From Candidatus Kuenenia stuttgartensis (GTDB taxonomy: Bacteria; Planctomycetota; Planctomycetia; Pirellulales; UBA1268), in NCBI GenBank assembly GCA_945877135.1, contig CAMCQY010000029.1, forward strand, positions 1-32,428: a stretch of DNA of 32,428 nucleotides, in the 5' to 3' direction. The translations under genes were made by a program, and so were the position numbers. The first letter of the stretch is position 1. Each line of letters begins with the position of its first letter. The notes below the pieces were generated by a model. The model was not told the DNA's origin and searched no databases. It was given only the letters and a program-made list of their open reading frames with translations. Positions 1,476 through 32,428 of the stretch are shown piece by piece.

Positions 1476-1524
1476 CGTGCCTACTCCGAACCCTTTCAAT
1501 CTGTTTTTTTCGATCGCCAAACCC

Positions 1525-1660
1525 GTGAGGGGCTGCCCGTGCCCCAAGAGCCGGCCTTGCTGACCAGCGGAGCCATGGATGGCGAAGCGCAGTCAGCATG
1601 GAATGAGCGGAGGCCAGGATGGCCGCAGCGAACGTCCGGCGACGGGGCATGGGCAGCCCC
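1525..1660 (+). repeat. Dispersed 136-bp repeat with 17-bp terminal inverted repeats (copy A)
   Basis: The ends are GGGGCTGCCCGTGCCCC (1529-1545) and the inverse complement GGGGCATGGGCAGCCCC (1644-1660), one mismatch in 17. A related copy lies in opposite orientation at 32002-32134 and also shares the outer GTGA at 1525-1528. Each terminal repeat can itself fold (GGGGC with GCCCC), and there are inner stems such as GCTGAC with GTCAGC. The right end lies 9 nt downstream of the speA stop codon, so the speA transcript probably runs into this structure. No convincing coding capacity. It looks like a small non-autonomous mobile element (MITE) or REP-like element; no target-site duplication is obvious. 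Confidence 0.85.
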
Positions 1661-1669
1661 AGGCAGCGT

Positions 1670-3589
1670 TCAACCCGGCTCCTCGAGGTAGGTGTAGCCG
1701 CCGAGTCCCTCTTCATAAAACTTCAGAAACCGCCCCGCCTGACCGTCGCAGATTCGCCCGTCGCGGACCGCCTGCTCGATCGAGGCCCGCAGCCGCTGCA
1801 CGAGTTGGTTGGGGTCGAACTCGACGTAGTCGAGCACCTCACGAACGGTATCCCCCTTGATCACGGCATCGACGACGACCTCGCCCCGGTCATCCGTGCT
1901 CACGTGCACGGCGTTCGTGTCACCGAACAGGTTGTGAAGATCGCCGAGGATCTCCTGGTAGGCCCCGATCAGAAACGCCCCCAAGTAGTAGGGCTCGTTC
2001 TGCCAGGCATGCAGGGGGAGCGTCCGCTTCACATCCCGGCGGTCGATGAACTGATCGATCTTGCCGTCGGAATCGCAGGTCACGTCGCCGAGCACCGCGT
2101 TGTGCGAGGGCCGTTCGTTGAGCCTGTGAATCGGCATCACCGGAAAGAGCTGCTTGATCGCCCAGCTGTCGGGCATCGACTGAAAGAGCGAGAAATTGCA
2201 GAAATAGGTGTCGGAGAGATTGGCCTCCAGCCCCTCCAGTTCCTCCGGCATGAACTCAAGCTGTTTTGCCATCTTGGCGATCTTTCGACAGATCGCCCAG
2301 TAGAGATTCTCGACGGACGACCGCTGGTCGAGCGGCAGGTAGCCACTGGCGAACAGGTTCATCGCCGTGTCGAGAGACTGCTGCGCGTCGTGATAGCTCT
2401 CCAGCAAGTTGCGGATGTTGATGTTTTGAAAGGTTTCCATCAGGTCGTGCAGCGGCTGCTCAGCGTCGGCCGCGGGCTCGACCAGGTCGCCATTGCCCCC
2501 CTGCTCCGACACGCCCAGCACGCCGAAGATCAGCATGCTGTGGTAGGCGACGATCGCCCGACCGCTTTCCGACACGATCGTCGGATGAGGCACCCCCGCC
2601 TCGTCGCAGGCGTTTTGCACGTGGTAGACGACGTCGTTGGCATATTCCTGCAGACTGTAGTTCACGCTTGACTCGAAGTTTGTCTGCGAGCCGTCATAGT
2701 CCACGCCGAGCCCGCCCCCCACGTCGAGATACTTGAGCCCCGCCCCTCGCTTGACCAGTTCTGCGTAGATCCGCGAGGCCTCGTTGAGGGCCGCCTTGAT
2801 GTGGCGGATGTTCGTGATCTGGCTGCCCTGATGGAAGTGCAGCAGCTGCAGACAGTCTTCCATCCCCTTGGAGGCAAGCAGTTCGAGCCCCTTCACCAGT
2901 TCGCTCGCCGTCAGGCCAAACTTGCTGCGAAAGCCGCCCGACGCCTGCCAACGGCCGCTTCCCCGCGTGGCAAGCTTCACCCGCATGCCGATCCGCGGAC
3001 GCACGCCGAGTTTCTCCGCATATTCGAGCACCATATGCAGCTCGGAGAACCGCTCCACGACCGGAATGATGTGCCGGCCAATCTTCTGCGCGAGCATCGC
3101 CGTTTCGATGAACTCCGCGTCCTTGAAGCCGTTGCAGATGATCGGGGTGTCGTTGTCGGCCAGCGCGATCACCGCGAGCAGTTCCGGCTTGCTGCCCGCC
3201 TCGAGTCCGAAGTGATAGGGACGGCCGAACTTCAGCACTTCCTCCACCACCTGCCGCTGCTGGTTGACCTTCACCGGATAAACACAGCAATACTCGCCCC
3301 GGTAGCCGTTCTCCTTGATGGCCGATGCGAACACTCCGTGGATCTCCCCCAGACGGTGCTCGAGGATCTCGGCAAATCTCAGCAGAATCGGCAGGTCAAT
3401 CCCGCGGATCTGCAGGCGGTCCACGAGTTGCTTGAGGTCGATGCTCTTGGTGGGGTTCTTGTCGGGGTGCACCAGAAGGTGGCCGGTGGGGCCCACCGAA
3501 AAATAGCCGTTGCCCCAGCGGGACACCTCGTAGAGATCGGAAGCATCGGCCGTGCTCCAATGTTCGGTGTCGAGATCTGCTGCTGCCAT
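1670..3589 (-). CDS. speA: Biosynthetic arginine decarboxylase
   Basis: Pyridoxal-phosphate enzyme of fold type III that converts arginine to agmatine plus CO2, the first step of the arginine route to putrescine and spermidine. At 639 residues it is close to the E. coli SpeA length (about 658). The PLP-binding lysine is K107 in the motif CCVYPVKVNQQ, and the family block GGGLGVDYDGS and the C-terminal region are intact. The ATG at 3589 is preceded by GAGAGGG at good spacing. The 91-nt gap to the transporter gene upstream allows a separate promoter; TACACT in that gap is a possible -10 box but no good -35 goes with it. The 3' end abuts the structured repeat at 1525-1660. Confidence 0.97.
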   Translation of the reverse strand: MAAADLDTEHWSTADASDLYEVSRWGNGYFSVGPTGHLLVHPDKNPTKSIDLKQLVDRLQIRGIDLPILLRFAEILEHRLGEIHGVFASAIKENGYRGEYCCVYPVKVNQQRQVVEEVLKFGRPYHFGLEAGSKPELLAVIALADNDTPIICNGFKDAEFIETAMLAQKIGRHIIPVVERFSELHMVLEYAEKLGVRPRIGMRVKLATRGSGRWQASGGFRSKFGLTASELVKGLELLASKGMEDCLQLLHFHQGSQITNIRHIKAALNEASRIYAELVKRGAGLKYLDVGGGLGVDYDGSQTNFESSVNYSLQEYANDVVYHVQNACDEAGVPHPTIVSESGRAIVAYHSMLIFGVLGVSEQGGNGDLVEPAADAEQPLHDLMETFQNINIRNLLESYHDAQQSLDTAMNLFASGYLPLDQRSSVENLYWAICRKIAKMAKQLEFMPEELEGLEANLSDTYFCNFSLFQSMPDSWAIKQLFPVMPIHRLNERPSHNAVLGDVTCDSDGKIDQFIDRRDVKRTLPLHAWQNEPYYLGAFLIGAYQEILGDLHNLFGDTNAVHVSTDDRGEVVVDAVIKGDTVREVLDYVEFDPNQLVQRLRASIEQAVRDGRICDGQAGRFLKFYEEGLGGYTYLEEPG

Positions 3590-31002: not shown

Positions 31003-31845
31003 TCACCGGGCGCAGGCTCGGTCGGCCGCCAGCGCGATGCCAGCGAGAACCAGTTCCGGCATCTCGATCGCGCCGGGCAGGGCGTCGCGAACTGCCCCTC
31101 GCCAGCCGCCGGTGAGGATGACGTCGGCCTCCGCCCCGATCGAGGCCCGAGCCTCGTCCACGAGCTTCGCGATCGCTCCGCGAATTCCCCAGCCGATTCC
31201 GGCGGCAATCGCCTCCTGCGTCGAGCGGCCGGGCATGGCCGGAGGTGCCTCCTGCTCGAGCGCAGCCACGGCCGGCAGCCGGCTCGTGCCCTCTGCGAGC
31301 GCCCGAGCCATCAGGGCCGGCCCGGGCAGAATGGCGCCCCCAACGAATCCGCCGGCCGGCGACACGACGTCCACCGTGGCGGCAGTGCCGCAGTCCACGA
31401 TGATCACGCCGCGGCCCGGCCGCCGCACCACGCCGGCAGCGGCAGCAGCCGCCAGACGATCGATCCCAACCTTGTGAGGCTCGGCAACGTGCACCTCCAG
31501 CGGCAGATCCCCGTGCCCGATCCTCCGCTGCCTCAAGACACGATGTCGGGTGGCGGAGAGTTCGGCGATGGCGGCCTCGAGCCTGGCCGCGGCACCGTCA
31601 TGCACGCTGGCCACGAGCACCACGGCGGCCGAGGGCGCGGCCTGACTGAGCCACTTTTCCAGGTTGGCAGTGCGAAATTCGCGGCTGTCGAGGTCCTGCC
31701 GCTTGGCTACCGTCGGCAGCCGCCGCACCCCCGAGGCGTCGACGCCGTGGTCCGACACCGCGGCGAGCTTGATCCGCGAGTTGCCCACGTCGGCCAACAG
31801 CACGGTATCGCCCAGACAAACGGGAACTTTTGCGGATGCTGTCAT
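31003..31845 (-). CDS. coaX: Type III pantothenate kinase
   Basis: First step of coenzyme A synthesis, pantothenate to 4'-phosphopantothenate; the CoaX type needs a monovalent cation and is not feedback-inhibited by CoA. I choose ATG 31845 with GAGG upstream; the longer frame to 32013 reads through the repeat region and is unlikely. 280 residues. The ASKHA-type motifs are present: LADVGNSRIKLA with D19, the HKVGIDRLAAAAAA block, and VDCGTAATVDVVSPAGGFVG. The C-terminal ILTGGWRG glycine motif fits the fold. First gene of the coaX-rsfS-argS-fusA series. Confidence 0.94.
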   Translation of the reverse strand: MTASAKVPVCLGDTVLLADVGNSRIKLAAVSDHGVDASGVRRLPTVAKRQDLDSREFRTANLEKWLSQAAPSAAVVLVASVHDGAAARLEAAIAELSATRHRVLRQRRIGHGDLPLEVHVAEPHKVGIDRLAAAAAAGVVRRPGRGVIIVDCGTAATVDVVSPAGGFVGGAILPGPALMARALAEGTSRLPAVAALEQEAPPAMPGRSTQEAIAAGIGWGIRGAIAKLVDEARASIGAEADVILTGGWRGAVRDALPGAIEMPELVLAGIALAADRACAR

Positions 31846-32001: not shown

Positions 32002-32134
32002 GGGGCTGCCCATGCCCCGTCGCCGGACGTTCGCTCCGGCATCCTGCCTTCGCTCACTCGATGCTGACTGCGCTTCGGCATCCTGCCTGCGCTGGTCAGC
32101 AACGCCGGCTCTCGAGGCATGGGCAGCCCCTCAC
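32002..32134 (-). repeat. Dispersed 133-bp repeat with terminal inverted repeats (copy B)
   Basis: Reverse-oriented relative of the element at 1525-1660; most positions match. Ends are GGGGCTGCCCATGCCCC (32002-32018) and GAGGCATGGGCAGCCCC (32114-32130). Inner stems CCGGA/TCCGG, GCTGA/TCAGC and two GGC-AGGAT-GCC hairpins are visible on the minus strand. Small reading frames through it are repeat-derived and not treated as genes. Confidence 0.85.
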
Positions 32135-32135
32135 C

Positions 32136-32428
32136 GTAGCCGGGATCGGCGAAGGTGGAGGAGACGAGGAGGATGTCCGACTTGTTGTGCGTGCCATTCC
32201 GTCCCGGGTGGCAAGTCGGAAGCTCCGAGCGACGGAAGCTTTGCCGTCCCGGCGGCGCATCGCCGCAGCAGTAAATGCCCGCATTCGGCAAGTTGAAAAC
32301 TCGCCGCCCTGGGGGAAGGGTAGCCGGGATCGGCGAAGGTGGAGGAGACGAGGAGGATGTCCGACTTGTTGTGCGTGCCATTCCGTCCCGGGTGGCAAGT
32401 CGGAAGCTCCGAGCGACGGAAGCTTTGC
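32136..32428. repeat. Tandem repeat, 184-bp period, continuing past the window
   Basis: 109 bp at 32136-32244 recur without a mismatch at 32320-32428, where the window stops. Between them lies 75 bp (32245-32319). Whether the whole 184-bp unit is repeated further cannot be seen. It begins 2 nt after repeat copy B. I recognise no protein domain in the frames across it. Confidence 0.9.

Follow-up and report, generated by a model that had tools for sequence, protein, structure and literature searches.

The window analysed here, a stretch of 32,428 nucleotides, is the whole of one contig (C29) in a draft genome of 240 contigs and 3.92 Mb. It carries two copies of a dispersed repeat, which we judge on balance to be a non-coding, non-autonomous, structured mobile element that is restricted to one lineage, lies downstream of genes, decays there and is moved in trans. 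Judging by the collections and open-access literature searched, the family is apparently undescribed. Short structured repeats shape bacterial intergenic space, and few have been described beyond Proteobacteria and Bacilli; the present family spans most sampled genera of one planctomycete family, and the covariation in its branched fold is unusually strong.

The two window copies, at 1529–1660 on the plus strand and 32002–32130 on the minus strand, were about 88% identical and mutually inverted, the latter as a first-pass annotation had stated, with 1525–1660 aligning end to end with the reverse complement of 32002–32134. The 17-bp arm is exact in both right arms and has one mismatch in both left arms (Table 1). 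The inverted arms were 97%, 89% and 88% complementary across three ungapped blocks. Bounded by the stem, the copies are 132 and 129 bp long; the extra bases GTGA/TCAC that the annotation had included are part of a conserved left flank and fall outside the stem-bounded element. Folding z-scores were −6.2 and −6.7. The first copy sits between the stop codon of speA and the start (1475, minus strand) of an NAD-synthase-like gene, while the second has coaX on one side and a tandem repeat at the contig end on the other; the names speA and coaX given earlier were correct.

Table 1. Parts of the two repeat copies and the named neighbouring genes, in window coordinates.
Feature	Position	Strand	Remarks
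Conserved left flank, copy 1	1521–1528	+	ACCCGTGA here; consensus ATCCGTGA; kept in most own copies
Outer stem, left arm, copy 1	1529–1545	+	GGGGCTGCCCGTGCCCC
Second stem, 5′ side, copy 1	1550–1554	+	GCCGG; consensus fold
Branch A hairpin	1555–1601	+	TGCTGAC...GTCAGCA plus tip hairpin; compensatory changes
Branch B hairpin	1603–1633	+	Tip of GGCCAGGATGGCC type, differs among copies; compensatory changes
Second stem, 3′ side, copy 1	1636–1640	+	Consensus fold
Outer stem, right arm, copy 1	1644–1660	+	GGGGCATGGGCAGCCCC; 9 nt past speA stop codon
Right arm, copy 2	32002–32018	−	Minus-strand element runs 32130 to 32002
Left arm, copy 2	32114–32130	−	
Left flank, copy 2	32131–32138	−	TACGGTGA on minus strand
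speA	1670–3589	−	Stop codon at 1670
coaX	31003–31803	−	

When the genome was searched with the 17-mer arm, allowing up to two mismatches, 79 + 77 matches (156 arm ends) were obtained, against 0 + 0 for the reversed control, giving a total of about 75–80 copies. Nearly all examined arm ends paired within 240 bp, except contig-end and broken copies, and 66 arm pairs were extracted with their flanks; spacing was mostly 129–133 bp, with several length variants having identical ends. The pair of repeats with 17-bp terminal inverted repeats is thus confirmed by the 156 arm ends, and the earlier proposal of a dispersed, non-coding, non-autonomous family is supported by some 78 copies and the extracted pairs, which lie outside known gene or RNA families.

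Of 60 sampled genomes from the GTDB family to which this one belongs, 51 carried the repeat, and these covered 11 of 12 genera. A covariance model search of 147 genomes of the order gave 21 positives, all within this family (f1); all 124 genomes representing the order's other families lacked the repeat. A known RNA family was rejected: Rfam gave no match at the gathering threshold and chance-level matches below it. Viral or plasmid carriage was likewise rejected, as PLSDB, INPHARED and IMG/VR (the last by an exact 30-base pattern) gave no match. Related records with organism titles were nearly all freshwater planctomycete MAGs, the lake origin being taken from isolate names. The family pattern is matched perfectly in one record titled Candidatus Kuenenia stuttgartiensis (CAMDDA010000030.1), which is likely a misnamed or mixed MAG, given that the repeat is absent from the order's other families.

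Folding of 60 aligned copies with RNAalifold gave an 18-bp outer stem, a 5-bp second stem and two branched hairpins, forming a three-way junction. Changes on both sides were found in 24 of the 44 pairs, compared with 8.2 in shuffles. With 114 aligned matches, double changes rose to 33 of 44 pairs (13.8 in shuffles) and 98.4% of cells were paired (31–44% in slid controls), in an alignment that was fitted to the structure and takes in nine weak reverse-strand matches. Whole stems were swapped in step, for example TGCTGAC/GTCAGCA, TGTTGAC/GTCAACA, TGGCGGC/GCCGCCA and AGGAAAC/GTTTCCT. This covariation across copies shows, on comparative grounds, that the branched fold is maintained by selection while copies multiply. 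At their branch tips, some copies (L084, L088, L093, L054, L056 and L092) have additional alternative hairpins (GCGGAGGCGATCTGGCTC; GCGGGCACCGATCCGTCTAAGCGGATTGGTCGACGAA), as though these tips were modular.

Non-Watson–Crick cells were unevenly distributed on the chosen strand, with 115 G.U against 19 A.C. Pair changes confined to a single copy were balanced (9 versus 10), while shared ones were 15 versus 2 (Fisher p = 0.014). Two frequent columns supply part of the asymmetry (35 of 70 G.U cells in one count), and distinct columns alone gave 24 versus 12 (p = 0.065); the asymmetry is suggestive, not proof, of selection on one single strand during spread. A possible, though clearly less probable, reading is that the element spreads by itself, replicating as one folded single strand (RNA or ssDNA) whose junction is read by the mover, with neither RAYT nor DDE enzyme. 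If this were true, selection during single-strand spread would keep G.U but reject A.C mismatches.

Sequences beyond the stem were also conserved. In own-genus copies ATCCGTGA precedes the stem and GAACCGT follows it, so that the end motifs are asymmetric, with GTGA on the left and GTTC (the reverse complement of GAAC) on the right. The idea that these flanks are a target duplication was rejected: the left motif is constant CCGT and the right varies within copies. About half of the own copies are preceded, at a constant distance, by a terminator-like hairpin of one of three interchangeable types (CCCGTCGCTTGCGCTCAGGGCTT; CCCCCGGCTTCCGCCGGGGGCTTTT; CCGGCCCTCCGGGCCTGGCGCT; left flanks of, for example, L002, L018 and L011) with the common spacer TATGGGACTCGGAAGCATCCGTGA, and the hairpin type at one site can differ between congeners.

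Occupancy was compared between congeners at about 14 sites. Window copy 1 was absent from the orthologous nadE–speA site in G018, G026 and G008. At C41:10197, G018 carried the copy with another tip hairpin, G026 lacked it, and G008 had a bare terminator hairpin instead of the repeat; the C41:17465 copy was common to G018 and G026, and the C97:8418 copy was absent in G026. In a tree of copies from eight genomes, grouping was mostly by genome, a pattern that suggests recent spread, or else homogenisation, inside lineages. Among the exceptions, copies L261–L265 of G038 (genus g4) mostly group with genus-g1 copies, reflecting either transfer between genera or bin contamination. Presence and absence between congeners, together with the clustering of copies mostly by genome, support the mobility proposed in the first-pass annotation, and on this comparative basis the dispersed family probably consists of mobile repeats.

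No target duplication was seen at the compared sites (window copy 1, C41:10197 and C97:8418), where the empty sites are not clean; the flanking duplications that had been suggested as a check did not appear. Because other repeats fill the empty intergenic sites, the insertion footprint and any target rule are unreadable. Another dispersed intergenic repeat (GGTTCAACGGTGCCATAGCCGGTCGGAGGCACGCGCAGGAGTCCGGTGAATT...) lies in the right flank of L004 (own contig C26) and has about 21 occurrences in G018 and 17 in G026; what seems to be a relative of it lies at the site orthologous to copy 1 in both genomes.

Classic MITEs and ERIC/Correia-like repeats are short and intergenic, have inverted termini and often lie downstream of genes. 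On one reading the family is a classic MITE, derived from a DDE-type IS by internal deletion and moved through its terminal inverted repeats by the IS transposase, which would suit its inverted arms, its length of about 131 bp, the many non-coding copies and the length variants that carry the same ends. We consider it unlikely, however. Besides the missing duplications at unclean sites, neither a parent IS nor any longer element with the same ends was seen among the copies examined in this draft genome, in which repeats are broken, and the conserved flanks are unlike at the two ends. Moreover, the interior is conserved by compensation, of which DDE movement has no need.

The gene context of the copies was then considered, using gene calls from a home-made caller: 25 copies lay in convergent gaps, 27 in co-directional gaps and one in a divergent gap. 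Convergent and divergent gaps are about equally frequent in any genome, so that 25 versus 1 is a strong bias (p = 8 × 10−7 under equal gap frequencies, the measured background, a small set biased towards element loci, being left out of the test). The median distance to the oncoming stop codon was 24.5 nt from the right end, and the left-end median was 130 nt. This position directly behind stop codons and almost never in divergent gaps, the strong covariation, and the tolerance of G.U over A.C on one strand would all fit a structured host RNA, that is, a 3′-UTR or terminator-like unit whose copies are kept for stabilising or ending transcripts. Such a role is rather improbable, since there is no U-tract and the strand on which the fold is preserved usually runs antisense to the closest gene, the stop codon of which faces the right end. 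Sites are also gained and lost among close relatives, and copies cluster mostly by genome, not by locus.

REPINs, or REP doublets, of Pseudomonas (PMC3116915) resemble the family in their inverted palindromic ends, whole-unit hairpin, compensatory changes, extragenic location, high copy number and detectable unit deletions. Arms forming a long hairpin, compensatory spacer changes and location downstream of genes are REPIN/REP features (PMC3116915, PMC3733652), and two inverted palindrome-like 17-bp arms joined in one hairpin by the outer stem are present here, as in a REPIN. In contrast to REPINs, the interior is a conserved three-way junction instead of a free spacer, the unit is about 131–146 bp with asymmetric end motifs (GTGA, GTTC), and it has no associated RAYT. 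A strict REPIN, in which two inverted REPs are moved by a RAYT (Y1 tyrosine transposase), predicts such an enzyme, and the genome does contain one RAYT-like Y1_Tnp fragment at a contig edge (C150:118–333). However, Y1_Tnp matches were found in only 22 of the 60 relatives and do not track the repeat: G001 has four and no repeat, while G012, G014, G022, G030 and G052 have many copies and no Y1_Tnp match. None of the 20 RAYT loci scanned had repeat ends nearby, and the palindrome has no directly adjoining GTAG or CGTC tag, its motifs differing between the ends. From the Y1_Tnp distribution and from scanning RAYT flanks for arms and neighbouring hairpin types, the RAYT link was rejected, and a strict REPIN is improbable. 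About 70 nt downstream of the Y1_Tnp fragment on own contig C150 (L105:1–423) lies one AAGCCCGAAGCGCGAGCGAGAGG hairpin.

Two other known systems were compared. TIRYT-associated repeats (PMC3733652) are likewise dispersed terminal-inverted-repeat families with G-rich ends (GGGGWSAS) outside the GTAG REPs, but they adjoin a tyrosine transposase gene, whereas 0 of 20 such genes here had the ends. The bcr1-type repeats of the Bacillus cereus group (PMC6542083, PMC3446304) share a length of 100–400 bp, tens of copies, lineage restriction, the lack of coding capacity and an unknown mover; bcr1, called MITE-like, averages 39 copies with a maximum of 130, and some bcr families have conserved RNA structure (PMC6542083, PMC3446304). 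The present family differs in its unrelated lineage, the lack of a TTTAT motif and its long GC-rich terminal arms. It is, like bcr1, lineage-restricted and multicopy with conserved structure and polymorphic sites, which is an analogy of kind, not homology. The family works like a REPIN or bcr1 and by test belongs to neither. Of the first-pass label 'MITE/REP-like', the repeat family stands, and a plain MITE or REP/REPIN is not established: no duplication was seen, and no transposase with these ends was found in the assembly, where repeats are broken and an autonomous copy could be missing, or beside the 20 RAYT genes.

The mechanism that we favour for a repeat moved in trans is as follows. The element comprises about 131 bp between the outer ends of the 18-bp stem, with short conserved flanks, and one strand folds into the outer stem, second stem and two hairpin branches. 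Copies multiply inside each genome and settle directly downstream of genes, as the copies described above show. The enzyme would act in trans, and we rate as most likely a single-strand (HUH-type) transposase that recognises hairpins, like the one proposed for REPINs; our preference for single-strand transposition comes from the fold, from the asymmetry between strands and from the failure to see duplications. Resident copies then decay in three ways: they acquire point mutations, exchange or gain tip hairpins, and lose the left arm and interior by deletion, which leaves a 17-bp remnant.

Remnants of this kind were found at four sites, three in G018 and one in G026, where nothing but the right arm, GGGGCATGGGCAGCCCC or a close variant of it, remains between the two flanks; no such short form was found in the window's own genome, G008 or G034. 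At the C25:7516 site the outgroup G008 carries the long form, and at a third site (G018 C1) G034 is long while G008 and G026 retain interior sequence. The long outgroup states at two sites indicate that the short form arises by internal deletion, with polarity supported at these two sites. The reverse, a 17-bp ancestral unit that received the interior, was rejected as the main reading on the same two outgroup comparisons and the rarity of short forms. The deleted stretch is bounded by two 5-bp GGGGC direct repeats, and slippage across the hairpin between them would fit the remnants; alternatively, an enzyme may be at work that spares the right arm every time (4 of 4). Presence, absence and 17-bp remnant at a site are natural replicates for studying spread without an evident transposase.

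The first-pass annotation had also read the window copies as bracketing the ribosomal locus and able to invert it. The bracketing looks coincidental, since contigs break at repeats and the mean copy spacing is about 50 kb: the window is a whole contig that stops within a repeated unit, a contig end is found within 500 bp of 17 of the 74 listed copies, and inverted copies at contig ends should be read with caution as an assembly effect. That the pair, inverted and about 88% identical as it is, forms a recombination switch for the 30-kb locus is very improbable, given that an inverted pair is expected around any region with about 78 copies genome-wide, that the window ends are contig ends, that near-identity extends over about 39 bp at most, and that the nadE–speA junction is unchanged in the three congeners, none of which has a copy there, leaving no sign of inversion.

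A repeat with a 184-bp period begins 5 nt past the second element and reaches the contig end (32136–32428), with exact 109-nt copies at 32136–32244 and 32320–32428; it probably caused the assembly break at the window end. The same unit also lies beside the copies at C81 and C41:17465, with two occurrences at the orthologous G018 site.
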